From contig WARS01002873.1 in NCBI GenBank assembly GCA_008933995.1, positions 248,001 through 312,000 of the forward strand: a stretch of 64,000 nucleotides of DNA. The letters are read 5' to 3'. A program made the translations under genes and the position numbers. This document shows positions 1 through 56,828 of this stretch, in pieces; positions within the stretch are counted from its first letter, which is position 1; each line of letters begins with the position of its first letter. This DNA is from Datnioides undecimradiatus. Its lineage: Eukaryota; Chordata; Actinopteri; Lobotiformes; Datnioididae. The notes under the pieces are model-generated. The model worked only from the letters and a program-made list of their open reading frames with translations, had not been told where the DNA came from and searched no databases.

Positions 1-1686
1 CTGATAGAAGCCTTTGCCGCAGATACTGCAGAAGTGTTTGCGACGGTGATCTGGTTCGCCGCCCTCCTCCAACAGCACTGGCCGGAACAGCTCCTGGTCA
101 TGGCAGGACAAAGCGTGCTCCAGTGCCAGGCTCTCGTTCTGGAACAGAAGCCCACAGTGAGAGCAGGCGAGGTCGGCGGCCTCCAGCAGGCCCTCATCCA
201 TCCCCTGTGGTTCCTCTAGCAGGGACGCTTCGTCCTCCCCATGGGAGTCTGACTCGCCGCCTTGGGATTCGCCGCAGCGCTCTGCATGCTCCTGGAGCTG
301 TCGACCTTTGATCAGCACCTGGCCACACCTCCCACAGGCGCACATATGGCCAATATGGTTGGACAGGTAGTGGGCTGACTTGTCCTCCTCTGCTAACAGA
401 GTGCCACACAGTTCACACGGGGCACAGTCGGCGTCCTGCTTCTCATCTTTGACCTTGCGAAGCTTCGCAGGAATTCCTAAATCTTCGCAGCTGGACATCT
501 GGCCTTCGAAAGGCTCACTGCTGGTGTCCCTACCTGAGACTCCGGGCTCTGCTTCGTGGTCTGATCCAGTTTTTTCCCTGCGCAAGTCTTTATGTGTTGC
601 ATCATTGAACCGTGAGCTACAGTCTCTGTTGGAGTGCTCACCGACCCGGACCACCTCTATCTCAGGAAAGGTGCTCTCTTCTGGTTCTGTCTTGATGGCG
701 ATGCTCCTGGTTGATACGGGCTCGCCGTCTGACCCGGCTGCCACTGATCTGATCGTGAGGTCAGAGTCGGCCTTGGCTTCGGACCAGTCGTCCTCGCCTT
801 TACAGACGACCCTGTGTTCCTCAGTGCTCTCAGAGGCTGAGCTCTCAGCTTTACTGGAGTCATTGTCGACTTCAGCGTTACCTCTTGGCTGATGAAAGGC
901 CTTCCGGTTGGTGCAGGTCAGGATGTGTTCGATTAAAAGCTTCTCGCAGCTGAAAACGAAGCCGCAGTCATCGCAGGTGTAGGTGCGGCCAAACCGAGGA
1001 CGGTCTTTGAGAGCTGAGCTCCTACCACTGGACCTCTTTCTCAAATCACATGGCTGCTCAACTCCTCCTTCCCCCACAGGTGGCGGTGGCACTATCAGAG
1101 CAGTGTTCACCACCTCCTCCACCGTCACTGGTCTGCTGACAGTCGCAGGAGCCGCTGGTCGGCCAGAAGTGCTGTTGACTGCTTTTGGTAAGCGCTCTGT
1201 ATCTGGTGCAGCAGGCCTCTGCTGCTCATACATGCGGACTCCAAACATCATCTTCCCACTGGCAGTGCCGGTGGATGAGCTAGACGAGGAGGAGGAGGCT
1301 GAGGAGGACGGGGTAAGGTTGGAGCTCCTGATGTCCCTGAGATCTTCCAGCGAGTCAGGGATGTAGTACATCTGCAGGTACACCATGGAGGCTTTGAGCT
1401 CCTCAAACTCGTAGCTCCCCACAACAATGCGTCCAAGGTACATGAGCTGCAGGATAAGGTCAAAACACTCTGCACTGATCTGCATGTTGCTGAGGTCCAG
1501 GCGGCCTGCCCCCTGCTGGTCCCGGATGAACATCATCCTGAAGTAGGAGCTGCAGGCAGCCAGGACGGCCTTGTGTGCCCTGAAGTAGATGTCACCAATG
1601 GCAATGAGGCAATCGCACAGGAAGCCCCACTCCCGCTGGTTGTTGAGCTGCTGGAGGACATGATCGCTGTGGCTCGGCCTCGCCAT
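1..1686 (-). CDS. zbtb1: Zinc finger and BTB domain-containing protein 1, 5' part of CDS (3' end outside window)
   Basis: BTB/C2H2 transcription repressor, nuclear; in vertebrates ZBTB1 acts in lymphoid development and DNA-damage tolerance (family knowledge). The first 562 codons are visible as one uninterrupted exon; the reading frame runs off the left edge. The start follows a splice acceptor (CAG at 1693-1691) and begins MARPSHSDHVLQQLNNQ, the usual ZBTB1 opening. The BTB domain spans about residues 10-115 (REWGFLCDC, AHKAVLAACSSYFRMMF). A serine-rich linker follows. An atypical finger CDDCGFVFSCEKLL starts near residue 238 and matches the characteristic ZBTB1 central finger. Further fingers (CELCGTLLAEED; CSICGKGF) lie near residues 420 and 550. 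Vertebrate ZBTB1 is about 700 aa, so roughly 150 residues are missing at the edge. It is head to head with zbtb25, as in human. Confidence 0.93.
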   Translation of the reverse strand, partial: MARPSHSDHVLQQLNNQREWGFLCDCLIAIGDIYFRAHKAVLAACSSYFRMMFIRDQQGAGRLDLSNMQISAECFDLILQLMYLGRIVVGSYEFEELKASMVYLQMYYIPDSLEDLRDIRSSNLTPSSSASSSSSSSSTGTASGKMMFGVRMYEQQRPAAPDTERLPKAVNSTSGRPAAPATVSRPVTVEEVVNTALIVPPPPVGEGGVEQPCDLRKRSSGRSSALKDRPRFGRTYTCDDCGFVFSCEKLLIEHILTCTNRKAFHQPRGNAEVDNDSSKAESSASESTEEHRVVCKGEDDWSEAKADSDLTIRSVAAGSDGEPVSTRSIAIKTEPEESTFPEIEVVRVGEHSNRDCSSRFNDATHKDLRREKTGSDHEAEPGVSGRDTSSEPFEGQMSSCEDLGIPAKLRKVKDEKQDADCAPCELCGTLLAEEDKSAHYLSNHIGHMCACGRCGQVLIKGRQLQEHAERCGESQGGESDSHGEDEASLLEEPQGMDEGLLEAADLACSHCGLLFQNESLALEHALSCHDQELFRPVLLEEGGEPDHRRKHFCSICGKGFYQ

Positions 1687-4849: not shown

Positions 4850-5875
4850 GTAAGACACCGATTAACGCCGCCGGGCACGGCGCGCGTGCACGACACAGAA
4901 AGACAGAGGGTGTGTGAGGGGCGGAGGGGCCTGCGCACGCGCCTGTGTGGGTGTAGGTGAATGAGGACGTGCGTGTTGCTGAATGTGAATGAGACAGGAT
5001 GGAGGAGGCTGCAGGCTCGCGGGCACGACGCGACGTGCACGCGCTGGGCTTTATCGTTGTCTGGTCGTGCAGGTGTCCAGTTTCCGGTTTGCTTAGATCA
5101 GAGATGGTTTTGTGTGTGTGTGAGTGTGTGTCTGCAAGTGTGTTTGTCTGTGTGAGTGTCTCTGTTAGTGTGTGGTTGTGTGTATCAGGTGACCTTCAGT
5201 GATGTCACAGGTCAGCTGCTGACCTCCTGCTCACCTGTCCTGATGTTCTCAACATACCTGAGCTCAGGCTGAAGGTGGGCGGGGCTTATCATGTGGCGGC
5301 TTTGCATCATGGATTCATGACAACAGCAAATTTTATCATTGCTGATTAACATCTGGTCCTTTGAGTAAAACAGACGTCAACTACGACTCCCATGATGCAC
5401 CTTACCTTACTCCCAAACATCCAATCAGAGAGCTGCGTCCTCTGTGACGAGGACAAAGTCACCAGCAGATCAAAACATTTCACTTTCTGTTGGATGCAGT
5501 TGCTATGGTGATGTGATGGAAGTCTGTTCTGACTGGACATGTCTCCATGGAAACAGCAGCTGAGGCTCATGGGTATTGCAGTGTTTAGTCAGATCCACAG
5601 TTAACTGTACTGCGAGTACTCATCAGTATTACAGTATAAGTACCGGTACTGAGTCTGTGTGGTGGCTCTGACAACTTCCTGTTGTCATGTGTCATGTGGT
5701 CTGCATACAGGAAACACATCTCTCATGTGTCGTCATGGCAACAGAGACAGAGTGCAATAATGAAAAAGAAACTGATTAAAAACAATCAATAAACTTGATT
5801 CATAAAGAAAGGTGAGGAGGCGGGGGAGGGGCCAAACTGTGTCACATGACCAGGTGTGTCATTGCAGGCGGGGTC

Positions 5876-7429
5876 ATGGAGGTGTCGTCTCACAGCCTCT
5901 TCCTGCTGCAGCAGCTCAACGTTCAGAGAGAGTTCGGCTTCCTGTGTGACTGCACCGTTGCCATCGGAAACGTCTACTTCAAAGCCCACCGGGCTGTGCT
6001 CGCCGCCTTCTCCAACTACTTCAAGATGATCTTCATCCACCAGTCCAGGTCAGGAGGCGGGGGTAATCAGAGTACATCAGTAATCAACGTTTAGTAATCA
6101 GATTACATAGTAATCAGAGTAGGTTCACATCTTCGCTCAGGTGTAACAGCTGTGTCACCTGGGAGGGGCAGGGCCTCAGACGTGTTGATTGGTCGGCTGA
6201 GTGGTGATGTGCTTCCTGTTTCTTGTCTGTGCAGCGAGTGTATAAAGATCCAGCCCACCGACATCCAGCCCGACGTCTTCAGCTACCTGCTGCACATCAT
6301 GTACACCGGCATGTGTCCCAAACAGCCCGTGGACCAGAGCCGGCTGCAGGATGGCATCAAGTTCCTCCACGCCTACCAGCTGTGCCGGAAGCCCGGCGAG
6401 GGTGCCACAGACACCGCCACCGACGTGGTCCGCATGTCCAACCTGTACGGCATTCAGATCTCCTCCCAGCTGGCCAACAAGGAGGCGTCCGGAGTCCCCA
6501 AGTCCACCACGGTGTCCTGTGGCGCCCCGGATGACGGCCGGTCATCTGGCCGGGGGGGGCGGTCCCACTCCCAGCTGTCGCTCGCCGTCGGACTGGAGGG
6601 GGTCCCGTCAGACCGCCAGGTCTCGGCACTACACAACGTCTGCTCCGTGGCGTCCGGCGACGACTCGGACATCTCGACTCGCATCAAGCAGGAGCGGTTG
6701 GAGGAGGAAGAGGGGGAGGACGGCGAAGGGGAGGAGGTGCAGGGGGCGGGGTCTCCTTCTCCGGCTCAGGGGAGCAGTCCCAGTCAGAACCTCCTGTTCA
6801 AAGACCGGCCCCTGGTCCTGCTCTGTCCACGTTGCGGGGAGCGCTGCTCCTCCCCCGAGGGCTTGCGGGAGCACCTGTTCAGCCACGCCCTCGACCCCGC
6901 CCGCCTGATGGAGGGGCTGTCGCAGGGCAGCGAGCTGGATGCCGGTGTGGAGGAGGGGCCGCCGGGGGCCCGGGAGCAGCTGGATGCGGGCTGTCTGGAG
7001 GAGGCACTGCGGCAGAGCCAGGCGCTCGCTAACCAGCTGGCTGCGGAGCTGCGGCGGAGCCGGGGCGGAGGCAGCGGCGGGGGCAGCAGCCCCAACCCCG
7101 GCGTTCTGCACTCACGAAAACGCAAGATCGCCTGCGCCGTCTGCAGCCTGCGCTTCTCCCACAAGAGCCAGCTGCAGGAGCACATGTACACCCACACCGG
7201 CAAACCGTCCCGCTACCACCGCTACAACCGCCTCTGCAGCCAGCTCTTCCAGGCCTCCGCCCACTTTTGCGAGGGCGCCGCTGAGCCTGGGGGAGGAGGT
7301 GGGGCCTCGGCCGGCGCCGCCACACTCTCTGAGGATGCCAACAGGGACACTCAGGACAACGGCAGCTCCTGCTACTCCCTGGACTCTGAGATCTCGCAGG
7401 AGAGTGTGGACGGCGTGGCCGTCGAGTGA
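5876..7429 (+). CDS. zbtb25: Zinc finger and BTB domain-containing protein 25
   Basis: Nuclear BTB/C2H2 transcription factor (ZBTB25/KUP family). Two coding exons: 5876-6048 and 6235-7429 (1,368 nt, 455 aa; human protein about 435 aa). The start at 5876 lies 9 nt after an acceptor and gives [15 protein letters not shown], matching the family N-terminus. BTB domain covers residues about 10-115 and is split by the intron between HQS and ECIKIQ, where the codon AG|C is joined. Two C2H2 fingers begin near Cys255 ([10 protein letters not shown]) and Cys358 ([13 protein letters not shown]). An acidic linker with IKQE (possible SUMO site) lies between BTB and finger 1. The C-terminus ESVDGVAVE parallels the human ending. 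Upstream in-frame ATG at 5846 is before the acceptor, so it is not used. High GC3 in exon 2 produces long shadow frames. Confidence 0.95.
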
Positions 7430-8280
7430 TGTCACCAGCCGGGTCAGAACAACTCGCTGCTCACAGACCACAGAGCCGCCATCGTGGTCTGTGAGCACTG
7501 AGTCATTCTCTGCACCTCTGCTCCTCTACCTGTGCAGGTGTGTGTGTGAATCAGTCATGTGATCATAGTGAGGTCATCAGCTGCGAGCAGCTGCCGCGGG
7601 GTCAGCTGACAGGAACAGCTTTTGACTTTCTCCGACGTGATGAGCGCTGCCGCTTCACCGCGATACGACCTTCAGATGAGCGTCATTGTGTCATTGGTTC
7701 ATGTTTTTGCAGAATCTGGATCTTCCACAGTGAGCCGAGCACGGGGCCGCCAGGCGCCGTCGTGTTGTTGGACGGCGCTGCAGTGCCTTCATGTGCTCCT
7801 TCCTCACCTCGTCGTCCTCTGGCTGAGGAACCGCAACTTCCTGTAAAGGATGATTCCGCTGTTTTGTAAAAAGGACGCATCTTCTTTGTTCCTGTTTGTT
7901 CACTCACGTTCACGTTGTTATTGATTAAAGCTGCAAACAACGAGAACAAACAACAATAAACGACAACAACCTACATGTAAATAAATAAAAGAGTATCAGC
8001 ACTGAACTGGGGCTTTATTTTGAAAGGGTGTGGGGTTAAAAACTGCATCACGGTCCTTCAATGGCTGTTTTTCTCTGTGGTCACATGACCAGTGTTCATC
8101 AGTTCCAGTTGAGCTGTTATTGATTGTTGATTGGTGAAAGTCTGATTGACGTCGTCTTCACTCTGTGTTTCACTGTAAAACAAACAAACAAACAAACAGA
8201 AAGTCTTGTGATGTTTTTGTACATAGACGTCTGTTTTTCATCAATGGAACAATAAAGTTTTGTAAATAAATGTCTTTTTC
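7430..8280 (+). other. zbtb25: zbtb25 3'UTR and polyadenylation signals
   Basis: AATAAA hexamers occur at 8251-8256 and 8265-8270, with earlier ones near 7980-7990. The T-rich stretch after 8270 suits a downstream element. The 3' end at about 8290 is inferred. Confidence 0.6.
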
Positions 8281-8289
8281 CACCAATCA

Positions 8290-9660
8290 GAGCTTACATT
8301 CATTCACATCTTTGATTTAAATCTACAGCTGATTAGCCTCTCACAGCTGATCAGTTAATTAATAATATAAACATATATAAACAAAAACAAACGCTGATGA
8401 CACTGACTCCACCTGGAGACACCTGGAAACACCCGGAGACACAACAATAAACAGAAAATAACTAATAATGTTACAGTGAAAACAGAAAATCAAATGACAG
8501 AAAGACGAGAAGGTCGTCCTGCACTGATTTCCAGCCTGCAGCTTCTTCTTCTCTGCAGCTTCTTCTTCTCTCCATGTTTGAGTTGTCATTGCTTCGCGTG
8601 ATGACGCTCCGTCAGCTGTCTGACTGATCGCAGCTCATTTGTCTCTGGACTCAACAGGAAGTTGATCTCCTGCTTCCTGTTGAAATTCCCTGCAGTAACA
8701 GATGACGTCCAGCAGGAGCCAGCAGAGAGCAGAGCACCGCACTGAGCAGAGGCATGCTTGAGTATTTGCATGAGTATTCACATCGCAGAAGAGGATGTGA
8801 ACGTTCATGTTATTCTTTCAAAGTAAAACGTCCAGAGGAGTCAGAGCACATTTTCACCTGTGGGACCCGAGGAAATGACGTGATCAGTTTATGGGACGGT
8901 GGGGAGAACATATAAAACATATTTAAACATGAATAAACATATAAAACAGATTTAAATATGAATAAACATATAACAGTGATGAGCGGTGTTAACAGTTGAT
9001 GACACCTCCTGCTCCTGTTCCTGCTCCTCCACCTCCTGCTCCCTGTCCTGCTCCTCCTCCTCCTTCTCCTCCTGCTCCTCCTGCTCCTCCTGCTCCTCCT
9101 GATCTTGTGGAAACTCATGGTAGAAAATAAAAACACATCTTGTTTTGTGTTCTCCTCCCCCGGGCACACGGCTCCTTGCCCTCCCACTGACTTATTGAAG
9201 AAACAGTTTGTGTAAAAGAAAACGCCAATCAGTGTCGTTACCACGGAAACTGAGGTGGAGGAGAGAGAGAGATCGGTGTTTCCTGTGTCTCTCAGAGAAA
9301 CAGATCAGATCAAACAAGAACAACATTTAGGTTCAGGTGAGACTTTCTTCCCCATCAGCTGATGACATCATTCAAGTCCATTGCTGTCACCTGCGCTGAT
9401 GTTCAGGTGCTCTCAGGCTTCCTATGAAGATGATGAAGGCTGATGAATGTGAGCTGCAGGTGAAGGAGGCAGTCTGAACCAGGTGCTGGTCAGCTGCAGT
9501 GGTCTGTAGTTTGGTTTGTTGGCATCTCCTGGTTCATCGTGAATGATGCGCTCACTTCAATCTGAATCTGTGTGATGAACAGGAAGTGACACCTGCAGCT
9601 GTATTTAATCTGCCTCTGTGTGTCCTGTTTAATCAGAAGGAACTGGAGAAGACACAGAGC
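8290..9660. other. Intergenic spacer with CTCCTG repeat
   Basis: No gene recognised. A (CTCCTG)n-type low-complexity run occupies about 9004-9103; it makes long Arg/Glu-rich spurious frames on the minus strand. The rest is AT-rich. Confidence 0.5.
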
Positions 9661-9666
9661 TTCACC

Positions 9667-11150
9667 ATGGAGACGATGGCTGTGGAGGACAGACAGGACG
9701 TCTAGACGGCAGACGGAGTCACTTTGAAGAGGAAGCTGATGGGTCCTCCGAGGCTGCTGCTGGGAAAAACCAGGACCAGGAGCATTGGGGAGGACAGACC
9801 TGCCGCAGGGAGAGACAGCACCGAGCTGACAGTCACCGCAAACACAAAACAAGAAGCCTCACCTGAAGTCCACGTCCGGGGCTCCAGGGGATGCTGTGGA
9901 GCTACAGGTGTAGAAGACAACATCAGGAACAGGAAGCAAAAGAGACGCAGGTGGTCGAGAAGGTTCTCACCTGCTGATGTTTGTAACAGGAAGCGAAAGA
10001 AGGAGGTGGTACTGCAGGAGACCGCTTCACCAAACCCCTCCAAAGAAAACACAGGGGGAGCTGAAGGGAGAAGGTTTAACATGAGGATGTGGCCGAAGTT
10101 CACAAGGGTCCTGACCTCCTCAAACGATGTTCCATAAACTCTTGAGAAGCAGAGACAGTGACGAAGCCTTCCGCAAAAAAATATGATGGCTTTTCACCAA
10201 AACAAGAAACAGCAGATCTTCTGGTGTCAGTCTGGACAGCAATATGGACCACTGGGTGAAGTGTGAGGAGCCCCTGCGTTCACCTGGAGCTCAGGTAGGC
10301 GAACCAACCGAACTCCACAACAATGTGATGGTTCAGACTGTGGAGGTCTGTGTGAGCTTCCTGCCAAGGATTTAATGGACAGCGCTTCTCCAGACAAAGG
10401 CAAGCTTCTCTGTGACACCAACAGAGTCATCCAGGAAGTTTTGACCTCCAGCGCATCATCTCAGGAGGCCTGTGAGGAGAAGATGGACAAGGCTACTTCA
10501 CACTCCCTAAAGACAGCCAAAGGACCAACCATCCGGATCGAGCTCGTTCCTCCAGACAATGTCAGTCAAGAGAACGCAGAGGAGGAGTGTTGGGAGGGCA
10601 GCTCCTCCTCAGAGAACCACAACCACCTCCAGTCTGACAGTCACAGCTCAGGGCCGAGAACATGTCACTGATCAGGGCTGATTCAGAGTCTGCTCATTAT
10701 CTTACTTATAACTAATAACTAATTGGTATTAATTAATAAGTTGGTTGTGTGTTTGAGCGGTTCTGTCTAATCTGCCGTGTGTGAAAAGAGACATGTTGAG
10801 TTTATTATGAGAACGATCTGCCTGTAACATCAAAAAACATGGTGCAGAATCAGCTCACATCGGACAAGTTCAGAAAAACTGAATCAAAACACAACCAGGA
10901 GGAGAACCAGGAGAACCAGGAGGAGAACCAGGAAAACCAGCAGAGCCATGAGGAGAACAAGGAGAACCAGGAGGAAAACCAGGAGAACCAGGAGGAGAAC
11001 CAGAAGGAGAACCAGGACAACCAAGAGGAAAACCAGGAGATCCAGGAGGAGAACCATGAGAATGTGGGGAAGACGCAGCTGAAGAGCAAATTGTTCTTGA
11101 CGAGCCTGGACCTGAACGAGCAGATAACACTTCCTGTGTGTCATTAGCAC
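9667..11150 (+). pseudogene. Unassigned broken reading-frame cluster (decayed akap5-like gene considered)
   Basis: Not identified. From an ATG at 9667 one frame reads METMAVEDRQDV and meets TAG at 9703-9705. It reopens to 10137 with strongly basic patches (KQKRRRWSRRF, NRKRKKE, MWPKFTRVLT). It is open again from 10375 to 10671 with an acidic, serine-rich segment (EECWEGSSSSENHN). A third frame, 10839-11147, is an Asn-Gln-Glu repeat made by a tandem of GAGGAGAACCAG units. The position between zbtb25 and mthfd1, the MET start and the basic W-x-x-x-x-R-V-L-T patch recall AKAP5. However, human AKAP5 lies on the same strand as MTHFD1 and this is the opposite strand. No RII-binding helix could be confirmed. 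It could equally be an unrelated gene with unseen introns or a remnant. Confidence 0.25.
10878..11066 (+). repeat. GAGGAGAACCAG tandem repeat (Glu-Asn-Gln coding)
   Basis: Imperfect tandem copies of GAGGAGAACCAGGAGAACCAG-like units. It is open in one plus frame as an (EENQENQ)n tract, and the antisense frames are open too, so openness alone is not evidence of coding. Confidence 0.8.
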
Positions 11151-11828
11151 TAATTAGCTGATGTCAATTAGCTGTGTGTTCCCATCTGCAGGGCCTGGTT
11201 ACCATGGTGACGGTACGAGCCTCGGAGACAGAGAAGAAGAGTGATGCTGCCGAACTCAGTGTGTGTCAAACAGCAGCGACGCAGGACGTCGGCTTCTCTG
11301 TTCAATCGTGCAGAAATCAATAATTAATCAAATCTATTGACGAGTCAGCGTGGCCTCATCGATTAGCTTGGGCTGAATGAAGGAAGCAACAGGAAGCAGA
11401 GTCAGTGAATGCATCAGACTTTAATGTCAGTGTGTCCAACAGATGGAGCCAATAATCAAATCATCAATACTTCATGTTGACTTCAGCCCACAGCAGGAAA
11501 CAGCTGTCTCTGTTCCCATGGCGATGACCTCGGGACCAACAGCCGGACACCCCGCGCTCTGACTGATGACAGGCTCCACCTCCTCTTCTCTGCATCAGAG
11601 CGCCGTCTTCCCGTCAGACGGGTCCTTCACAGAAACAAGCTCAGGTAGGGAGACGAGGACTCAGCAGCACAGAGACAGACACCTGTCTGTCTGCTCACCT
11701 GTCTGTCTGCTCACCTGTCTGCTTACCTGTCTGTCTGTCTGTCTCCTCACCTGTCTGTCTGCTCACCTGTCTGTTTACCTGTCTGTCTTTCTGCTCACCT
11801 GTCTGTGTGTTACCTGTGTCTCGTGGTT
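11151..11828. other. Spacer at 3' side of mthfd1 with CTGTCTG minisatellite
   Basis: An imperfect CTGTCTGTCTGCTCAC minisatellite covers about 11686-11812, within the inferred mthfd1 3'UTR. The variant polyadenylation hexamer ATTAAA is present on the minus strand near 11419-11424. No synthetase-domain exons were found here. Confidence 0.5.
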
Positions 11829-12893
11829 TCATCTCCTTTGGTTCTTCAGGAGGAATCTCTGTGCGCTCTGCACCGTGTTCTGAAACAGAGACCTGAAGAG
11901 TCACAGACGTTCTCCAGAACGTTCAGGCCTGATGCTCTGCAGCAGAACCTCTGACTGATCTCTGGAGAACCACAGCTCCACACACACACACACACACAGA
12001 CACACACACATACAGACACACACAGACACACACACAGGGCCATACCTCCATCAGCATGGCCACCGTCATTGGCCCGACCCCACCTGGAACAGGTGTGATG
12101 AATCCTGCCCTCTGATTGGCTGAGGCATAGTGGACGTCTCCAACAACTCGTTTACCGCTTGCCTTCGTGTCATCTGTCAGAGACGAGCATGCACACACAC
12201 ACACTGAGTCAGCTGACGTAGCAGCAGTGTGTACCTGATGTAGAAGCTGATGTAGCACAGTGTGTACCTGGTACATGGTTGATTCCACAGTCGATGACCA
12301 CAGCTCCCTCTTTCACCCACTCTCCTCTCACCATCTCTGCTCTCCCCGCCCCCACAACCAGGATATCAGCCCTGCCCACCTGCAAACACACAGGAAACGC
12401 ATCATCAGACAGGAAACACATCATCAGACAGGAAACGCGTTGAGAAAGTGGCACAGGTGAGTCACCTGCTCAGGTAGGTCTGGTGTCTTTGAGTGACAGG
12501 TGGTCACAGTAGCGTGGTTCCAAAGCAGCAGGTCATGCATCGGTGCTCCAACAATCTTACTGCGACCAATCACGACCGCGTGTTTGCCCACCACAGACAC
12601 ACCTACACGGGAACAGGAAGTAGCAGGAGGTGACAGGAAATGACACGTGAGACTTGTTTGTGACTGAAGAGCAGGAGCCGACGGACATTTGAACCTCCAG
12701 CTGCTCTGCTTTGTGTGTGTTTGTGTGTGTGTGTGTGCGCGCGCACGCGTGTGTGTGTATGCGTCTGTATGCGTGTGTGTGTGTGTCACCTGTCTGTCTG
12801 ATGAGCTCCATGCAGCCGTTGGGGGTGCAGGGGATGAAACAGTGGTTAAGGTCGCCTCGAGACAACTTCCCTGCATTAATACAGGTCAGACTT

Positions 12894-12924
<31 letters not shown>

Positions 12925-14256
12925 TAATAAAATAAGACAAAGACACTTCCTGCGGGTCACTTCCTGTGAAGACTCACCCGTCCACGTCCTTCTGTGGAGA
13001 CACGGCGTTGGTGATGAGTTCGGTGTCCATGGAGTTGATGGAGTCCAGAGGCAGCTGGACGATCAGGCCGTGGATGGACGGGTCCTCGTTGACAGACGTG
13101 ATGCTCTGCAGCACCTGCGGGACGACAGGAAACAGGAAGCAGTCAGAGCGGCTGCTGTCGTGGCTGCTGGATGTCGTCGTAGGCTGGGGGTTAGGCACCG
13201 ACCTCATCCTGCGTCGCCGTGTTCGGCAGCCTCAAGTGTTTTGCATTGATTCCAATCTGCAGACCAGAAACTCAGTGTCATTAAAACCACAACAGTCCAC
13301 ATCAGACCAGATCCTGATCCCCAAAACCAAACTAAGCCCAGAAGTTTAGAGGAGAGACCCAGACACACAGGGGGGACAGATGGAGGACAGACAGGGGACA
13401 GATAGAGGACAGACAGGGGACAGATGGAGGGAGGGGACACACAGGGAGGGGACAAGTGAACAGCTGATGAACAGGACCTCAGCTGCCGCCTTCAGTTTGG
13501 AGCTGATGTAGAGGTTGGAGTCGTCTCTGTCGCCCACCTAAAACACAGACAAACAGGTGGAGTCACCTGACCAACAGCAGGTGGAGACAGTCACGTGACA
13601 TCAAAAACACAGTCAGTTATCTGGAGGTGAACTACGGCAAGTCTGGAGGCTCAAAGCTGTTCTTTGCTGGAAACTGATTGTCAACATCACGATGGCCTCA
13701 GACCTCGGGCAGGAAGTCGGGCTCGGATTGAGCTGGACTCTGCAGGTTCAGGTCTGTCTGACTGCTGCAGGTTTCGGTTTGCAGGGCTAAAGGTCATCAG
13801 AGTTCGTGGGAGGAGCAGCAGCTGCAGACTGAGCCACCCGCCTGAGTCTGCAGAGTCAGCGGCGAGCAGCACGTCTGAACATTTGGCTGATCTCAGACCA
13901 GTTTGATTCCACCGCAGCAGCAAAAAGCCAGAGCCTGAACGTTCAGTGCAGTGATACTCTGCTCATGTGACTTGCAGGTGGTCACATGACTTCCTGTAAC
14001 GCCTGATGATGATGATGATGGCGATGATGTCCTGATTCTCACCTGTAAGATGACCAGACCTGGTCTGAACCCTGAGAAACCGCCTTGCATCTTCTCCACC
14101 TCCATCTTCAGCCGCTCCCTCACCAACCTGCTCACACACAGACTCCAGATCAGCTGACAGAGGTCACATAACTTCAGACTGGTGGCACTGGACCAACTGT
14201 GAGGAAACTGGACCGACTCACTTGGACGTCTTGTTGCCGGAGATGACAGTTGCCAT
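11829..14256 (-). CDS. mthfd1: MTHFD1-type bifunctional methylene-THF dehydrogenase / methenyl-THF cyclohydrolase, lacking the synthetase domain
   Basis: Interconverts 5,10-methylene-THF and 10-formyl-THF (NADP-linked; cytosolic in MTHFD1). Ten exons, complement: 14256-14222, 14127-14043, 13537-13478, 13256-13203, 13114-12978, 12890-12790, 12602-12466, 12379-12268, 12173-12046, 11879-11829. All have GT-AG borders and the sum is exactly 900 nt (299 aa plus TGA). Catalytic residues are at a constant offset of -2 from human MTHFD1: Tyr50 and Lys54 (SNLYISSK), Gln98 (VQLPL), Asp123 (KDVDG), Cys145, and NADP-site Arg171 in GRSKIVGAP. The last exon matches the final D/C helix ([10 protein letters not shown]) and then ends KNQRR-stop. 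The C-terminal 10-formyl-THF synthetase domain (about 600 aa in MTHFD1) is missing. MTHFD2 is less likely: RDDSNLYI is the MTHFD1 form and no mitochondrial leader is seen. Confidence 0.92.
12700..12789. repeat. GT/GC microsatellite in mthfd1 intron 6
   Basis: TG-rich run with GCGCGCACGCG interruption, directly beside the exon 6 donor. CA runs also occur at 11978-12036 (intron 9) and 12893-12919 (intron 5). Confidence 0.8.
13366..13456. repeat. GGACAGAC(A/T)G minisatellite in mthfd1 intron 3
   Basis: Imperfect copies of GGACAGACAGGGGACAGAT-like units lie between mthfd1 exons 4 and 3. Confidence 0.7.
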
Positions 14257-14697
14257 GGAGCACCTGCTTCCTTGGCAACCAAAGGTCCCAAGATGGAGTG
14301 AGAGGGCGGCCAAGGATAACATAACGGGGTTGGAGCAAGCAGCATGGTAATCGTGTTTATTAATCAATAACTTTTATTGATCACTGCTGTTTAATCATCT
14401 AATCTGTTTCTGCACAGCTTCACCTCTATGAGGAACGGCCAAAAGTATGTGGACAGCTGAAGGTCCACACAGACACACATATACACACACACACATCATT
14501 GTCACACAGCTGCTGCGTCCAGGCTCCACGTCAGCTCCTCCGTCTCCGCAGGAAGTAGCAGTAAAGTGTAGAGACAGAAGCAGACGGTCAACAGGTCGAT
14601 GATTAAAGACACAAACACAAACTGAACGTTTCCCATGATCCCTCGGTGCAGCTGCAGACATATGAAGATAATCAGACCTAACGTTGCTGCAAACTGA

Positions 14698-19200: not shown

Positions 19201-22200
19201 TATGAATCAGTGTGAGGACAGAGAGGAGGGAGTCCCTCCCTCTGAAACCACTCTGTGTGGGGAACATGACAGCCAGACCAAAGCTCAGAGGTGAGATGAG
19301 GATCTCTAACTGTCCATGACTCTTCTCCATGTCACAGGTCAGCACTCACATCACTCCATCATTATTCACATTCAGAGCTCTGTGTGTGTTGTATTGAAGC
19401 CTGAGAAGCAGCAGAGACCAGGCTCTGCTGGACCTGACCAGCACCTGCTGTGTGTCCTTGAAGAGTGACCGGTCTATGAACCAACGTGATTCTTCAAAGG
19501 AGTCCATCAGCGGCTGGATCAGAGGTCAGAGCTGCCTGGCATAACTGCTATAATCCTCTTTCTAAGATCTATCACCTTTCTGCTGCTGCCCTTCATGAGG
19601 TTAAAGTGTTGATGATGTTCCCAAACAAAAACCTTTGACTTGACATCCTGATTATTTACAGTCCAAACTTTGTGTGTTGAAGGAAAAAGCAGCAGCAGAG
19701 ACCAGACTGTTGTAAAGAGTAATATTTTGTGGAGGACCCCAAGGTGCAGACAGACACACAGAAACAGTCAGTGAAATAAAAATAATGATCTAGTTTATTA
19801 CATACACAAGGTAAATGAATATACTTTGTTCAGTGAGGCAAGGAGTTAGGCAGGGGCAGAGGGGAGTCCAGTGGGGCAGGTGAGAGCTGAGGGGCTTAGG
19901 GGAGAGACAAGGTCTGAGGCAGGAGTCCAGGGATCAGAGGTGAGGACGTTCCTGGGTTGAGGCAGGCAGGGCAGGAGTAGGGTCTCCAGAGTCCTGGAGC
20001 GGAGTGCTCCTGTGAATGGTAAGACTAATTGTTCATGGAGACTCATTACTGACCTGGAAATAGGAAGGATCTGGCTGGACGGAATGGGCTTGCAGGAGAC
20101 CCAAAACACGGCTACCAAGCTGAGGCAGGTAATCAGGATTGCTGAGGTCGGTAAACACCCAGGAAGACTGGAGAGCCGAACTGAGTATTTAAGCAGGAGA
20201 GTCTGTAGATGGCTGATCAGTGGATTGATTGCAGGTGTGCAGAATGAAGCAGCTCCAGCTCCACCCAGCACAGGCCAACCTCAACACAAAACACAGGGAA
20301 ACAGACAAAAAGACATGGCACATGCCCATAAAAGGGGAGAGGTGCGGGGAATCTAGGGAAACCCCAAGGGCCTTGACACAGACTCTGCTTATCCAGACCT
20401 GGACCTGGATCGGCAGCCAGCTGTGTGTCCTTGAAGAGTGACTGGTCTATGGACAAACTTATTCTCTTCAAAGGAGTCCATCAGCGGGCTGATCAGAGGT
20501 CAGAACATCAGATGTTTGTCTCTGTTATTGTCCGGCCTGTCTTGGTATTAGGTTTATGGTTGTGATCACTTTCTTCTTTCTTTTGCTCTTGCTTTTTTAA
20601 CGGTCTCACATTTGCAGATCTGATTCTTAGAGTTAAAACCACCAAACAGTTGGTTTGAGACGGTGTGAGAACATTGAAGGAGATCACCTGTGAGCTTAAG
20701 CTCATGAAGCTCTTTTAAACCAGGACACACATTCATCAACAAAATTGAACAGGTGTGGCAGCATGTACAGACTGAACAGTGACAGACCAGCAGCAGAGTC
20801 CAGACTCTCTGAACCTGAACCCAGCCAGCTCAGCTTGAAGAGTGTTCTGAAACATCGCACCTGGCCCTATACCCTAAATATGGACACCTCAGCTTATTCA
20901 GGAAACAGGCACCTTCTTGTTTGTCCAGTTGTTCGTGTCTTAGTCAGGCACTTTTAGAGTCTGTGGATTCAGCCAACCACAAACTAAATCCTGAAGCAGC
21001 ATCTGATCCAGTCTTCATGCTGCAACCTGCAGACAGCAGGATTTCTGTCTGTCACAGACATCTGATGTCTCTAACAAGGAAAGTTCATGTCTCTCTCTGT
21101 TCCAGCTGCTTGAAGGAAACATTGTCAGTTTTGTGAAGAAGGAGCTGAAGAAGATCCAGAGAGCTCTGAGTCCAGATTACCTAGAATGCTTAGAGAGTCA
21201 GAGGGAGGAGGAGGAGGTGTTGGATGGTGAGGATGAGGAGCAGAGGAGGAGCAGCAGAGAGGCATTTCTGAAGATCACCCTGGCCCTCCTGAGGAGAATG
21301 AAGCAGGAGGATTCTGGCTGAGCTGCCTGCAGAGCAGTGGGAGCATTTTAAACACATTTAACATGATGGAAAGAGGAAATGGAGGCACCACAAAAAGTCA
21401 AACTGCTGTTAATATGATGCATTACATTTGAACAGATCTATGAATTCTTTCTTGCTCTGAAAACAATAAAAAGTGTTTACAACTGATGTGCTGAAGAGAT
21501 CTGATGGAGGGAAAGGAGAACAAACACCATCTGAATGTGATCTGGAAAAAGGACACTCGATCAGATTTATTGTAGCTCAAAACTCAGCACTTTCATCTGT
21601 TTGCCTCTATTCAGGTCCAAGCCTGCAGGACACACGTGAACTCAAGTCTAACCTGAAGAAGAAGGTCCAGGTGGTGCTTGAGGGGATCGCTAGCGCAGGG
21701 AAACCCAACCCTCCTGGAAGCAGATCTACATGAGCCTTACATCACAGAGGGAGGGACTGTAGGGGTCAATGATGCAGCTCATGAGGTCAGACAGATTGAA
21801 ACAAAGCATCCAGGAAAGCACACAGAGAAACAAGCATCAGACGAGAAGACATCTTTTAAAGCCCTCACCTGAAGAGAGGAACCAATCAGAACAGGATGTG
21901 ACAAAGGGAGTGGCTACATTGGGAAAAACAGTCTTAACACAGAAGTTCACTCTGGACTGGGCTGAAGACCAAAGCAACCAGGACATCCAGTTCACATTTC
22001 CATTGACTTTCAGAGAGCTGAATAAAAGGAAAGAGAGAAATAGCTTGGTAGAACTTGTTCATCACTTCTTCACTGAAACCAAAGAAGCAGGAATCTGCAG
22101 CTTTGAACAGCTCCAGGTGGTCTTCATCTTTGACGGTCTGGACGAGTGTCGACTTCCTCTGGACTTCCACAACAACCAGGTCCTGACTGAGTCCATCTCA

Positions 22201-24125
22201 GTGGATGTGCTGCTGACAAACCTCATCAGGGGGAACCTGCCTCCCTCTGCTCGCCTCTGGATAACCACACGACCTGCAGCAGCCAATCAGATTCCTCCTG
22301 ATTGTGTGGACACAGTGACAGAGGTCAGAGGACTACTGACCCACAGAAGGAGTGTGAGTACTTCAAGAAAGGTTCAGATGAGGAGCAGGCCAGCAGAATC
22401 ATCTCCCCACATCAGCATATCACGAAGCTCTCCACATCGGCGGTGCCACATCCCCCAGTCTTCTGCTGGATCACTGCTACAGTTCTGGAACACATGTTGA
22501 CCACAGACCAGACAGGAGAGCTGCCCAAGACCCTGACTGACATGTACATCCATCTCCTGGTGGTTCAGTCCAGACTGAAGAACATCAAGTGCGATGGAGG
22601 AGCTGGAGAGATTCACAGGAGTCCAGAGAACAGAAGGTGATTGGAGTCTCTGGGAAAACTGGCTTTTGATGAGCTGCAGAAAGGAAACCTGATCTTCTAT
22701 GAATCAGACCTGACAGACTGTGGCATCGATATCAGAGCAGCCTCAGTGTACTCAGGAGTGTTCATACAGATCTTTAAAGAGGAGAGAGGACTGTACCAGG
22801 ACAAGGTGTTCTACTTTGTCCATCTGAGTGTTCAGGAGGCTTCTGGCTGCTCTTCATGTCCATCTGACCTTCATCAACTCTGGTGTCAATTCCAAGGTCA
22901 CAGCAACGATCAACATCGGCAGTTCAACTCTTCAGAGCAAAACCTGAACTGGAAACATTCCACTAGAGTGCTGGGGACTACGCCTTACAGAGTCCAAATG
23001 ACACCTGACTCCGCTTCCTCCTGGGTCTTTCACTGCCAACCAGCCAGACTCTCCTACGAGGTCTGCTGACACAGACAGGAAGTAGCTCACAGACCAATCA
23101 GGAATCAGTTAAATACACCAAGAAGAAGATCAGTGAGAGAGAGCTGGTCCTGAGCTACAATCATCCAGGAGACTCAGGTGAAGCTGTCTGGTTGATCTCT
23201 GGAGAACTTAGACTGAGACCTCGGCCACTCAATGCATGGACAGAAATAGTGACCCACACCTGCAGCTGCCTCTAATGCCTCATCATGAAGGAACCAGTTT
23301 CATGTTGAGCAGCAGTTTGGACTCATGCTGGATAGAAAATCATTCCTGACTGTGTTTCTTCCTCCAGGGTGACCATGGTGGACAAGCACAGGTTAAAACC
23401 TGGTGTGTGAGGAAGTGTAAGTGTGTGATTTAACTTGACTAATGATGGTAAAAGCAGCACACAGTCAGTTTGTGTCTGAGTCCGTGCTGATAGTTGTGCT
23501 GTTTCTTCATTAAAACCTGACTGAGCATATGGAATAAAGCCTTCAGATGTGTCTGATGATAAACTGGCTGCTGTGTTAGCCTTTTTCTTTTCTCCATCAG
23601 ATTCCTGTGAACTCACACTGGACACAAACTCAGTGCACAGGAAACTCAAACTGTCCCACAACGACAGGAAGGTGACACATGTGAGAGAGGAGCAGCCATA
23701 TCCTGATCATCCAGACTTGACTACTGGGCTCAGCTGCTGTGTAGAAATGGTCGCTGTTACTGGGAGGTCGAGGGAGCAGAGAGTTTTTATATCAGTGACT
23801 TTACAGAGAATCAGGAGGGAGAGGAGACACGAATGACTCTGTGTTTGGAAGAAATGACTGGGGTCCTGACTCTGAGCTGTTTGATGGTTGTTACTCAATT
23901 CAAGCAAGAACAGAGTAACAGTCCTCCATCCTCCTCCTCCTCCCTCCTCCTCCTCTGGTAGGAGTAGCAGTGTATGTGGACTGTCCGGCTGGCTCTCTGT
24001 CCTTCTACACAGAGTCTCCTGACAAACTGATCCACCTCCACACCTTCAACACCACCTTCACTCAACCTCTTTTATCCTGGGCTTGGATTCTGTCTCCAGG
24101 TTCCTCAGTGTCTCTGTAGGAGGGA
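19201..24125 (+). pseudogene. NLR-C (NLRC3-like) innate immune receptor, disrupted: N-terminal repeats, FISNA, NACHT, LRR trace and B30.2
   Basis: Remnant of the fish-specific NLR-C family, cytosolic NTP-dependent sensors. Visible in order: N-terminal exon MNQCEDREEGVPPSETT (about 19204-19290, followed by GTGAGA); a short CVSLKSDRSM-type repeat exon at about 19410-19520 and again at about 20375-20490; a helical charged exon (KKELKKIQRALSPDYLECL) at 21100-21321; FISNA (GPSLQDTRELKSNLKKK) at 21615-21800; NACHT at 21890-22640 with Walker A GVATLGKT and Walker B FIFDGLDE intact; winged-helix part to about 22850; an LRR trace (SYNHPGDSG, about 23150); and PRY-SPRY at 23600-24120 (DSCELTLDTNSVHRKLKLS). 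The reading frame is broken repeatedly: frame changes near 21700, 21860, 22340, 22840 and 23830, and an in-frame TGA at 22638-22640. It is therefore called a pseudogene. Sequencing error could explain one or two breaks, not all. Confidence 0.85.
19725..20370. mobile_element. Probable non-autonomous interspersed element inside the NLR-C remnant
   Basis: The stretch from about GGAGGACCCCAAGGTGCAG to CCCCAAGGGCCTTGACACA has the composition of repeated elements found dispersed in percomorph genomes: AGACACACAGAAACAG, a GAGTATTTAAG segment, GATTGATTGCAGGTGTGC, and an internal AATAAA-like A-rich part. It separates two copies of the same NLR-C exon. No transposase frame is present and I could not define terminal repeats or a target-site duplication, so class and borders are uncertain. 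Confidence 0.4.
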
Positions 24126-39300: not shown

Positions 39301-42300
39301 TTCATCAGACGTGAAGCTGCTGGAGGTGAAGAGGCCGGTTGTGGTTAAGAAGAGGCTTGGTTTGCCGATTCGTGTCTTTACTCCAGATTTCAAAGACAGA
39401 TCACGTGTAGTTAAAAGTGGGCTTCATTAATGTGCAATGAGAGATCGTTCCTGTTCCTTCTCGTGCCCAACTGCTGCGCGAAGGTAACGAGCGGTTTCTG
39501 GGATCCTGGGGGGATTCTCAGGCCCTTTTTCTGCTAACAAGGGGTTTCTTGATGTATTATTCAGGGACAGTAAGCTCACCATGCTGCTCAGCGAATCCCT
39601 GGGAAACATCAACTGTCAAACCACCATGATCGCCCACATCTCCGACTCCCCGGCCAACTACATGGAGACGCTGACCACAGTGCAGCTGGCCGCCCGCATC
39701 CACCGCGAGAGGAAAAAGAAGTCCAAGGTACTTGAGGTCAACTGGCAGGAACAGATTGATTATAGCTCTGATTATTGATCAGTCTGCAAAATAATCAGCC
39801 ATGTTACTGTATACATCCCACAGGGGGCAATTCAAACTCACATAATCAGTTTATTACCCAAGAGTAAAACCCAGCAACACAAAGGCTCGTGGAGTCTCTA
39901 CATGTGTTGAAGTCACCTTTCATTGTCAATTATTTCTCCACTGACACGTAAACAATTGCTGCGTTACAGTTTAAAGACACAAAAACAAATTCATGACATT
40001 GAAGCTGCTCATAATTTAATTTAAAGGGAAAAACGAGATCCTAGACGTCAACTGATTCTTGCAGTGGATCTCTGAATGAGTCTGAGCTCATTTCCTGCAG
40101 CGTGTGACAGTAAAAACCTAAAAACCATCCAGTTTACCCTGTGAATCTGTTTCATCAGGTCATAGAGTCATATTCTCATAAATCATAAGTTTCTTCCAAC
40201 CACAACGTGACAGATAATCACCATCACTGGTCCTGTGGGGACAGTGGCCTGATGGACATGAGACCACTGTTCATTCTCGCTAGAGGCTGAACTGATTGAA
40301 AAAGCTGAATGGAAATAGTTTTAAGCTTCTGCACTGACATTCATTGTAATCCAGTGTGCACTTTGAACCTCATGCTGCAGCCACAGAGATTTGCCTTCAG
40401 GCTGATGCTGGTGGACTTCAGGTCTCTTCAGGTTAATGCTCTGTGGTTTCTTCTTCTCTTGCAGTACACCTCCAGCTCATCCGGCGGGGAGAGTTCCTGT
40501 GAGGAAGGCCCATCTCACCGACCTCCTCATCTGAGACCATTTCACCCTCAAACCGTGGCCCTCGACCCAGACACGCCCCTGCTGCTCTCCAGCGATCCTG
40601 ACTACTCCTCCAGCAGCGAACACTCCTGCGACACTGTCATCTACGTCGGGCCTGGGGGGGCGGCTATCTCAGACCGAGAATTGAGCGACAATGAGGGACC
40701 TCCTTCCTTTGTTCCTATCATCCCCTCTCTGAACAAAAAGAGGGTCAAAGATGCACCCAGGTCAGATGGAGATCACTTCAAGTGTAACACTTTTGCAGAG
40801 CTGCAGGAGCGACTCGATTGCATCGATGGCAGCGAGGGCTCGTCAGTGTTCGGGCCAGAAGGCAAAGCAGCAGCGCTCCGGACTCAGACTGGAGCTGCTA
40901 AACCCACGGAGGCAACATCTCCACCCAAATCTGATAAGATCTCCTCTCACAGGTTCTTAGAAAGTAAACAAACCACATGCACAAATAAACCTGATCAGGA
41001 ACTTCTCAAGGTCCTCTCAGCTGGTGGCCTCATCGCCACATCGAAACAGACCAGTGCAGACAAGGAGAAGCTTTCAGCCACCCCCTCTCAGCCCTGTGTG
41101 GCACAGCCCATTGGGACGTTTTCCCAGGACTCTCAGTCTGTGGTGCGAGAGAAGGTCTACCTCAAAGAAGGTGTACCCAAGCCGTCTCCCTCACCGTCCT
41201 TACCCAAGACATCCAGGGCAGCATCTCAGCCTGGGGAGGTTGTTGGTAGGACTCCGCCTGTGGGTATGAGCCAACAAACACTGAGGCAAGGCCAACCAGT
41301 GGCCAACCCTGACACAGAGAGTCTCCCTGATGCTGGCAGATGCCTCATGGAGGTGAGCAGTCTATGGGCTGCCCTGTTGGAAAGATGCCTCAACAGGGAC
41401 TTTCTGACTACTGTTACCCTGCAGCAGCCTGTGGAGCTGAACGGGGAGGACGAGCTTGTGTTTACAGTCGTAGAGGAGCTTCCTCATGGCCTTGTCCGAG
41501 ACAATGGCCACCCCTCCAACCTGCTCAGCTTCAACAGCGGCAGCTCTCTGCAGGCGTTAGCCTCTGGCTCTCGCCCTGTAAGCATCATCAGCAGTATTAA
41601 CGATGAGTACGATGCTTACACATCTCAACAAGGAGCTGTTGCACCTGCTGCTGATGCGAGCACAGACTGCAGGGAAAGTATGTTTTGCCAACATGGCAAC
41701 AAGCCGTCAGTTATTGAAGTGGGTGGTGATTGGGCTGAAGGTGAAATCAGCCTTAATTTGAGGGACAAATACAAGGCAACAGAGAAAGCATCCACGCTAA
41801 TGTCCCCGAGTATATTCCTTAAACAGACATCCTTGCAGCACGGCATCAAGAGCTCGCTGAGGGACAGCGGCTGTTTCTCAGAGCTGGACAGTAGCCACGC
41901 TACTCCAAACAAGCCTCCCTTTACCAAGTGTCCATCCTCCCCTGACTCAACAAAAGCCTCCACAAAAGGCTCTCTAAAGATGAGTGCAAACACTTCATTG
42001 TCAGCCCAGATTCCTCATCATGCCGCTCATTCCAGTCTTCCCAGGAAATCCAAGCTGACCTCATCTGTAACTGTGGGCAAGCAGGAAGGCAGACATGATT
42101 ACTTTTTGCTTCAGGGAAGCAGCGACTTTGACCCCAGAGAGGTTGAGTTTCTCTCTGCAGGTAAGCCACAAAAAAGTGGCATGAGCGGTGTTTCCTCTAA
42201 GAGGCCTGGTGGGAACAGCAACAGCATGCCTCGACCACCGAGGGCTCAGGTTTCATCTTCAGCTCAGAGGGTCGTGGATGGTTGTGAGAGGTCCAGCAGC

Positions 42301-45300
42301 AGGAGAGGAGACACTCTCGTCAAGCTGCCACAACTCACACGAGGAGCAACCACTCTGGGAACTGTTTCTATTCCCCAGACTTCTGAATCCAAGTGGGCTC
42401 ATGAGGGCGCTGCAGTGATGGGTACCCTGAGGTTTTCATCCTTGGGTAAAAAGTCAAATGGGCAGAAAAGCATTGTGATCTCCAAGTCTGGAACCATCTC
42501 TCCCCCTGCTCCACCTGTCAGACAGTCAAGCCAAGAACAAAAGACAAGGACCGCATCATCAAGTGCCTTAAAGTCCTCACTATCCAAAACATTGCCCTCA
42601 GAGGAAGAGTTCAACATCAGGCTGCGGGCAGATTCATTCAGTCACAGGACATCTGGTACAAAAACTGAGCACGGCTCTGTCAGGACATCTTTAAGCCTGA
42701 AGACACGTGGGACCAAAGCAGAGTCTTCCAGATACTACGGGAGTCTGATGTCTCTGGAAAGATGTGACAGTCAAATCTTAGCTGGGTCTAAGCCTGAACC
42801 ACTCGCAGAGAACAGTGGCGCTACTCCAGGAGGTAACAGCAGATCCAACAGATCAGTGCCACGACTCAGGGTTCCAGCATCCACCTCCACATCTGCTTCA
42901 TCTTCCCAACTTTCTCCGGGTGCCTTTGCAACCGCAATCAAGGCACTGGGGCAGGTCAAAGTCAACGGCAGCTCACAAGCAGCAGTTTCTGGTGGATCAA
43001 AGGTTCGAATACTGTCGACCAGTAGTTCCAAGAGTCTAAGCTCCCCCCCTAAACCTCTTGATAATGTAGCTGGACGCAACACAAGCCTACCTCCAACTGG
43101 GAAGTCCCCAGCTCGGTCAGTGACAGGAGCCAAGATGGGAAGAGGCACCATCATGGGCACGAAGCAGGCCATCAGCAGGGCAGCTAACAGCCGGGTTAGC
43201 GAGCTAGCCTCTGGGAGCCAAAGAAAGCAGCTCAGCAGACAGCCCAGACTAACAGGAAGTGAAGGCACTGACAGCGGGACCAGCAGTGTCAGCAGGTCAC
43301 CAATCAACACACCGCTGCCATCGCCTTACAGCAAGATCACAGCGCCTCGGAGGCCGCAGCGCTACAGCAGTGGGCACGGCAGTGACAACAGCAGCATCCT
43401 CAGCGGGGAGCTGCCCCCCGCCATGGGCCGCACCGCCTTGTTTTACCACAGCGGGGGGAGCAGCGGCTATGAGAGCATGATCCGAGACAGCACCTCTTCA
43501 GCTCATGACTCCATGAGCGAAAGCGGAGTGTCATTGTCCAACAGAAGCAGAGTCTCGAAATCGCCCAAGAAGAGAGGAAACGGTGAGTCCACTTTGCAAA
43601 GTTAGAAAAAGGCATCAGAGAATATTTCATCTGAGCAATGAGTGGCTCGACACTGACCAGACTGACCAACAGCTCAGTCAACGCCACTGCTGTTCAACCA
43701 CAGTACCTCCACTTCAGGGCTTTAGACCATAGCAGCCCCTGGACTGCGTTAGCATGTTAGCAGCTCAGGCTCTTGCCGAGGAAAGTTAACTGCTCTAAAG
43801 GCTGTGCTGCTTTTTCACATCATCAGAGTTAATGGAAGAAGTTTGACACTTAAATTTGACATTCAACAACTTTTTCTCCATGTGTTGATTCAGAGAGTGA
43901 CGAGGCCACGAAGCTACACTGCACAGAGAAATGAACATATTTATGACTTTTCCCAAAATGAGCCTCGATCCATCACAGTGCATGATGATGGCGTGATGGC
44001 TCTTCAGGATGATGTGTTCATGAATGCTGAGAGGAGGACAGGTATTACTGCTGTGGAGCATCCATCACCGGCTGCTCTGATGCTTCGCCGCATCAATTTA
44101 TGTCTGGTGTTATCGTAAAATCTACATGCGCGTTATCTGGGACGCTGTCGTCGTGCATTCAGCCTCTGTGCTGCTGGTCGTGATTCATGCGGCTTATTGG
44201 CAGGGGCGGCGTGCAGGTCAGCCTGATGCATATGGAATCAGCACTCATGTGATCCGCCTGCCATCAGTTTGAGCATCTCATGAATATTTCATAAGGCTGC
44301 TGCGATTCCCGGTGTACATATCCAACTCCAATTATCACCCACACAGCCTCCCTCCACATCCACTACACAGCACTCCACACACACCCACACACTCCACAGT
44401 CCAACGGTAATGGCTTTGTGTTTCTGCTGCTCGCTGCCGCAGCGCCATAATGATCATGAAATTAATTTTGACAGCCGTGTGTACGAGGTCGTTATAAATA
44501 GGACTGAGGTCTTTAGGTGTAGGCAGAGGTGCTGGACCTTAGCAGCAGTGTGACGTGCTGGTGGAGTTAAACTGGGAGTTTTCTGATAACACGAACTAAA
44601 TAAAACCTCACTTCAGAGATCTGCTCATCAAATCTGTCTGTTGTCCACATTATATTCATTTTAGTAATTCTGCCTCCATCAGGTTTCCAGCGGCGCCGCC
44701 TGATCCCAGCTCCCCTGCCGGACCCCTCCTCTCTGGGCAGGACGGTGGGGGGTCAGTGGGTGGACCTGCCACCGCTCGGCGGTGCCCTGAAGGAGCCCTT
44801 TGAGATAAAGGTGTACGAGATCGACGACATTGAGCGCCTGCAGAGGAGGAGGGAGGTGGTGACGGGGTCAGAGGTGAGACAGCCTCCATCTGCTCAGCTG
44901 CAGGAGAAGGTTCAAGAAACTCTTCAGATGCAGTTGAGTTGCGGTAGAATCAGGTCGGGTCAGGGTGCAGACAGAAAACCAGAGGCTCATGGGTACTGTA
45001 CTGCTGCACACTCAACAAACATGTTCAAATAAAACCAGGAAGAGACTTTTTAATATTTCACTGAACCAGTCAATGTCAGCAATCTGTTCACCGGTTTGAA
45101 AAGGAAGTGGATTCTTAACATCTGTCAAATAAATGAACACATCGTCTGCGTATAATGATATTTAATAAGCCAGGAACTCTCACTACTAGGATAAATCAGT
45201 TTATTCAGATCTAATTTCAAAAGTGTCAACAAATAAAGCAGAAGCCAACACCTGCACACACACAACAGTCAGCATTCACATCAACATTACACTGTCAAAC

Positions 45301-56810: not shown

Positions 56811-56828
56811 CTTCTTCTTCTTCTACTG

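Follow-up and report, generated by a model that had tools for sequence, protein, structure and literature searches.

A probably functional MTHFD1 paralogue of the dehydrogenase/cyclohydrolase-only type in Datnioides undecimradiatus

Introduction

In opisthokonts, the dehydrogenase/cyclohydrolase (D/C) domain and the synthetase are reported to be fused in MTHFD1, with no separate synthetase, according to the excerpted text of PMC11064299. A fish gene of MTHFD1 type that ends after its D/C half raises the question of whether it is a working gene, a decaying fragment or an accident of assembly. Such a gene is present in the window, i.e., the whole stretch of 64,000 nucleotides analyzed here, which corresponds to C220:248001-312000 in the 581-Mb assembly of 497 contigs. 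A selected D/C-only descendant beside the fused enzyme would offer a vertebrate way to ask what the fusion is for, and would also show whether the capacities of D/C and synthetase are separately adjustable.

Gene structure and domain identity

The gene runs on the minus strand from window position 14256 to 11829. Its ten exons join to 900 nt including the TGA stop codon and encode 299 amino acids with the C-terminal end KNQRR; all nine introns are GT-AG. The complete ten-exon, 900-nt gene claimed in the earlier note is thereby confirmed, on the minus strand. The exons are listed below beside those of the other MTHFD1 copy of this genome, which lies on contig C466.

Exon 1, 14222..14256, minus strand: start codon homologous in position to those of human MTHFD1 and of the C466 copy, one to two residues shorter
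Exon 2, 14043..14127, minus strand: GT-AG, same length and phase as exon 2 of the C466 copy
Exon 3, 13478..13537, minus strand: Y50 and K54 (human Y52 and K56)
Exon 4, 13203..13256, minus strand: GT-AG splice structure
Exon 5, 12978..13114, minus strand: Q98 and D123 (human Q100 and D125)
Exon 6, 12790..12890, minus strand: GT-AG splice structure
Exon 7, 12466..12602, minus strand: cofactor loop GRSKIVG, S195 (human S197) and dimer strand
Exon 8, 12268..12379, minus strand: GT-AG splice structure
Exon 9, 12046..12173, minus strand: motif-bearing, GT-AG splice structure
Exon 10, 11829..11879, minus strand: truncated, 16 codons and TGA, compared with 98 nt in the C466 copy
Minisatellite array, 11680..11817, no strand assigned: 16-nt units, beginning 11 nt behind the stop codon, next to the truncated exon

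The protein matches PF00763 (4.7e-33, model positions 1-115 of 115) and PF02882 (1.4e-66, model positions 3-158 of 160), and the top solved structure is the human MTHFD1 D/C structure 1A4I (449.6 bits), where residues 2-295 align without gaps to chain positions 4-297, giving a constant offset of -2 from human. Human MTHFD1 structure entries score 447.8-449.6 bits, while every other entry among the 27 listed reaches at most 234.3 bits, including the MTHFD2 structures at about 220 bits and 7QEI, MTHFD2L by name, at 210.5 bits; by bit score the protein is thus nearest to the D/C part of MTHFD1, not to MTHFD2 or FolD. A PF02882 profile search of the assembly gave 9 matches from 17 candidates, all scored, which fall on C466, on C220 and at two loci of C328. 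An identity as MTHFD2 or MTHFD2L is ruled out by the bit scores and by the two MTHFD2-type genes that exist separately on C328. Two short peptide patterns, compared with genome contigs, found among the matches listed one relative, a FolD at 44%, and in viral contigs none of the 385 pattern matches was a relative.

All nine residues checked (S49, Y52, K56, Q100, P102, D125, R173, S174 and S197 in human numbering) are kept, so the statement that the catalytic residues are retained at a constant -2 offset holds. The functional roles of Y52, K56, Q100 and D125 are described in the excerpted text of PMC6443876, which also names the dimer residues T191, V192, T193, T194 and T199, all identical in the window protein as read from the alignments. 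It has been reported that S197 has a role in NADP+ use, and that MTHFD2 has R233 where MTHFD1 has S197 (PMC9173628, in excerpt). The MTHFD2-type arginine is absent from the window protein, which has Ser195 at this position, and the bifunctional NADP-type set, i.e., the equivalents of Y52, K56, Q100, D125 and S197, is present. Of 80 columns that do not vary among human MTHFD1, human MTHFD2, the C466 copy and one bacterial FolD, 77 are kept, the exceptions being E76Q, V92I and I107M. Judged by its sequence, the window gene is real and probably functional as a D/C-only MTHFD1 paralogue.

In the C466 copy, exon 10 continues with GKWKISYTKLNLQKPVP past the last D/C helix, while window exon 10 matches it for about 14 codons and then diverges to TGA; the ancestral end of exon 10, its donor site and all downstream parts are gone from the window copy. 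Since the stop codon lies inside ancestral exon 10, the KNQRR tail is a leftover of that exon. The earlier description of an end just after the last D/C helix is refined by this, the end being no domain boundary of its own. Relatives of the minisatellite, with 71-88% identity, occur on 20 or more further contigs, in a search that scored 40 of its 744 candidates.

Loss of the synthetase half

Over the whole assembly (497 contigs), the PF01268 synthetase profile yields 17 exon matches, each of its 24 candidates having been scored, with 8 on C307, 9 on C466 and none on C220, the window's contig, where the trifunctional architecture is accordingly lacking. The claim that an MTHFD1-type paralogue here lacks its synthetase half is borne out, and the second, full-length mthfd1 for which a search of the same genome had been proposed is present on C466: tblastn with a human MTHFD1 sequence gives exon matches there over residues 15-935, covering D/C and synthetase. 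The C466 copy was spliced for its D/C part only, and its synthetase exons are known from the tblastn and profile matches. On C307, the same query finds the synthetase and, for the D/C part, a single weak match (43% over 46 residues), the pattern that mthfd1l should give.

No N occurs in C220:208001-322000, which covers 51 kb downstream of the gene. With the C466 synthetase peptides as tblastn queries, the best E on C220:208001-322000 is 0.23, against 0.32 on the reversed sequence, and in the 4.4 kb behind the gene (window 7427-11828) it is 0.69, against 0.51 reversed. The sensitivity of this search was estimated from one simulated neutral decay per distance, in which the best E is 7.9e-28 at 0.3 and 2.3e-7 at 0.5 substitutions per site, then 0.073 at 0.8 and 0.14 at 1.2. 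Detection is lost past about 0.5 substitutions per site, so a synthetase remnant older than that could be missed; because decay up to 0.5 would be detectable and no remnant was found, the loss is either old or a clean deletion. The synthetase half is absent from the window copy, through deletion or old decay. The earlier note had named synthetase exons elsewhere or an assembly break as findings that would overturn its reading; PF01268 occurs only in two other genes and the region holds no N. An assembly gap or loose synthetase exons are ruled out by the PF01268 search, the absence of N and tblastn scores at the level of the reversed control.

Divergence and selection

The window protein and the D/C part of the C466 copy are identical at 234 of 299 residues (78%), and the positions and phases of all nine introns are common to both. 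Their comparison (NG86) gives a dN of 0.154, a dS of 1.8, which is near saturation and imprecise, and a dN/dS of 0.086, a pairwise ratio that also spans the time before truncation and does not directly show selection after it. The near-saturated dS argues against a recent copy, and the retained introns argue against a retrocopy. These comparisons mark the window copy as an old paralogue subject to purifying selection rather than an assembly gap, a recent fragment or a retrocopy, and the earlier preference for a gene over a remnant agrees with this constraint on the D/C part. A second allele or recent segmental copy is ruled out, because PF02882 finds only one such locus (17 candidates, all scored) and dS is 1.8. 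In a search with window 11400-12600, for which 40 of 744 candidates were scored, one place matches at 100%, and the D/C match that follows it, at C466, reaches 65%.

With the human sequence as outgroup, 33 replacements are specific to the window copy and 12 to the C466 copy (Tajima chi-square 9.8), and the two fish copies share 52 residues against human. When exons 1 and 10 are left out, the counts are 24 and 11; only 18 of the 33 window-copy replacements have a BLOSUM62 score of 0 or above. By this measure, the window copy is constrained, yet evolves faster than its C466 partner. In simulations of neutral substitution (2000 runs per distance), no stop arises in the frame in 29% of runs at 0.05 substitutions per site, in 10% at 0.1 and in 1.2% at 0.2. 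It is therefore unlikely that the gene has been neutral for long, but the truncation may be recent and a brief neutral period may have followed it.

Gene neighborhood

Two BTB-type genes lie beyond the 3' end of the D/C gene, both identified by comparison with human sequences:

zbtb25, 5876..7426, plus strand: in two open frames, 5816-6091 and 6098-7426; convergent with the D/C gene at a distance of 4.4 kb
zbtb1 (BTB zinc finger), 1..1686, minus strand: beyond zbtb25, cut by the window start and continuing to C220:247632

Mouse Mthfd1 is followed by Akap5, then Zbtb25, then Zbtb1, interspersed with other genes (PMC4420501, as excerpted; Table 1, columns read downwards), and the presence of zbtb25 and zbtb1 near the window copy agrees with this MTHFD1-lineage neighborhood. 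In the 70 kb around the C466 copy, ZBTB1 and ZBTB25 find nothing but a stretch of 37 BTB residues with an E of 5e-5. The open frames there suggest what we take to be klhl28 and togaram1. Since zbtb25 and zbtb1 stand beside the window copy and not beside the C466 copy, the window copy keeps the mammalian-type neighborhood and the complete copy stands elsewhere. The two copies most likely derive from the teleost genome duplication, with which the pair is in keeping, the date and kind of the duplication being presumed.

The C-terminal 398 residues of zbtb25 match only themselves and two weaker places on C307, which are 43% and 38% identical. A zbtb25-like BTB zinc-finger gene lies at C307:5768039-5769130, at a distance of about 57 kb from the last exon detected for mthfd1l, and this pairing of mthfd1l with a zbtb25-like gene mirrors the mthfd1-zbtb25-zbtb1 block of the window; by its position, the C307 gene is presumably zbtb2 of the MTHFD1L neighborhood. 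Between zbtb25 and the D/C gene, open frames rich in basic residues occupy window 9706-10668 on the plus strand, where 9706-10134 has no Pfam match. That they are an akap5 remnant was considered and dropped, as tblastn of the window with a human AKAP5 sequence gave a best E of 1.1.

Other frames in the window are the following:

21763-22497, plus strand: NACHT-domain frame of an NLR-like gene
39488-43602, plus strand: terminal part of a kinesin motor domain at 39488-39775, then a 1098-codon open frame without a Pfam match; we take this gene to be perhaps a KIF26-type kinesin
52812-54167, plus strand: Kelch-repeat frame
55695-56822, minus strand: rhodopsin-type receptor frame of 376 codons

Translation start and compartment

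Two in-frame start codons precede the D/C sequence, at 14322 and 14256, and upstream of 14256 the reading frame stays open through 39 codons.

Upstream in-frame extension, 14257..14322, minus strand: second ATG, 22 codons, possible alternative N-terminus

The methionine at 14256 has its homologue in the starting methionine of human MTHFD1 and of the C466 copy. The context of the ATG at 14256 is weak, with T at -3, which makes this N-terminus a tentative one; the upstream ATG has G at -3. If translation began at 14322, the 22 extra residues might serve as a targeting leader and the product would be a mitochondrial one, a D/C enzyme of NADP type that shares the matrix with mthfd1l and the MTHFD2-type enzymes. 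The extension, MLSLAALSLHLGTFGCQGSRCS, lacks acidic residues and contains one K/R among its 22 residues, no fewer than the human MTHFD2 leader, and both the open frame and the better position -3 are in keeping with such a start; however, its hydrophobic moment of 0.29 is below that of the MTHFD2 leader (0.38) and that of the protein's own start without the extension (0.33). With an equal basic count and a lower moment, these simple leader measures are compatible with a leader and with none. By estimate, chance alone could well leave 39 codons open, the frame of an out-of-frame ATG at 14345 overlaps both starts, and the C466 copy and human begin at the homologous downstream methionine, which together make a mitochondrial product possible but doubtful. 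In zebrafish, according to the excerpted text of PMC3410756, Mthfd1a has a predicted mitochondrial leader and mutated synthetase residues, the residues are conserved in Mthfd1b, and both are expressed. If the window gene is the orthologue of mthfd1a, the synthetase function may have been lost before the domain itself.

Proposed function and alternative explanations

The reading that we prefer, at a probability of roughly 0.7, is that the window gene is one of two fish MTHFD1 copies that would have lost the synthetase by truncation, kept the D/C part and come to encode a bifunctional product beside the C466 enzyme. The ancestral copy would have lost its formyl-THF synthetase by truncation inside exon 10, where the minisatellite array now stands, and the D/C half would have been kept intact under selection. 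The predicted product is a 299-residue NADP-type bifunctional enzyme, with transcription, activity and cofactor use predicted likewise, which would interconvert 5,10-methylene-THF, 5,10-methenyl-THF and 10-formyl-THF in one active site. It would oxidize methylene-THF reversibly with NADP and hydrolyze methenyl-THF to 10-formyl-THF but would lack the formate step, and the site of action is probably the cytosol, a presumed compartment. Beside the complete C466 enzyme, D/C capacity would be raised relative to synthetase capacity, with the direction of flux presumed. The suggestion that the pathway is split differently from that of mammals is weakened by the two-domain copy on C466; because C466 still encodes both domains, the window gene would be added D/C capacity and not a pathway split or a replacement of the fused enzyme.

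The same ten exons could belong to a young pseudogene, in which the synthetase was lost recently and the D/C half has yet to collect stops. The faster replacement in the window copy than in its C466 partner would suit such a gene, as would the survival of the frame in 29% of simulated runs at 0.05 neutral substitutions per site, but across ten exons there are zero frame or splice-site defects, the overall constraint is strong (dN/dS 0.086 against C466), and no synthetase remnant was found although decay of 0.5 substitutions per site remained detectable (one simulated run per distance), which points to an old loss or a clean deletion; a young pseudogene is unlikely. Less credible still is an artefact of assembly in which the synthetase exons are present behind the gene in the animal and were dropped or misplaced. 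C220 is short (379,895 bases), and a tandem array directly behind the stop codon is a place where assemblies can fail; against this, C220:208001-322000 is free of N and the PF01268 matches in the 497 contigs are confined to the two other genes.

Beyond the preferred reading of a truncated, D/C-only copy, the retained dimer strand would make mixed dimers possible. It is a speculative and rather unlikely proposal that in some fishes the second MTHFD1 copy has specialized as a D/C enzyme and, by way of this strand, pairs with the two-domain enzyme in mixed dimers. If true, mixed dimers would tune the methylene-THF/formyl-THF ratio independently of formate entry, the coupling of the three MTHFD1 activities would be adjustable, and the mutated synthetase reported for Mthfd1a of zebrafish would represent a preceding step on this path.

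Comparison with known systems

In the open-licence literature, as far as its excerpts extend, no description of a D/C-only fish MTHFD1 gene was found, and annotation in gene databases may well exist. The window protein shares with vertebrate MTHFD1, including the C466 copy, the D/C sequence, the intron positions, the NADP-type serine and the dimer strand, and its gene has zbtb25 and zbtb1 as neighbors as in the mouse; vertebrate MTHFD1 differs in having a synthetase of about 620 residues, which makes it trifunctional, while the window protein is without a synthetase. Zebrafish mthfd1a on chromosome 20, compared by its description in the excerpted text of PMC3410756, is likewise a divergent second fish MTHFD1 copy, and its synthetase catalytic residues are mutated, but its synthetase domain is still there, whereas in the window copy it is gone. 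The crystallized human D/C fragment DC301 (1A4I) covers nearly the same residue range (301 compared with 299 residues) but is a laboratory construct, whereas the window case is a gene.

MTHFD2 and MTHFD2L are also bifunctional D/C enzymes without a synthetase, but they are separate mitochondrial types with half the bit score to the window protein. It has been reported that MTHFD2 arose from a trifunctional ancestor that lost its synthetase domain (PMC9173628, in excerpt), which gives a precedent in print for the loss seen in the window copy. The silkworm MTHFD, with 301 residues, is likewise bifunctional and D/C-only; its identity is 41% with DC301 and 49 to 51% with MTHFD2/MTHFD2L (PMC6443876, as excerpted); being nearer to MTHFD2/MTHFD2L, it has another descent than the window gene.
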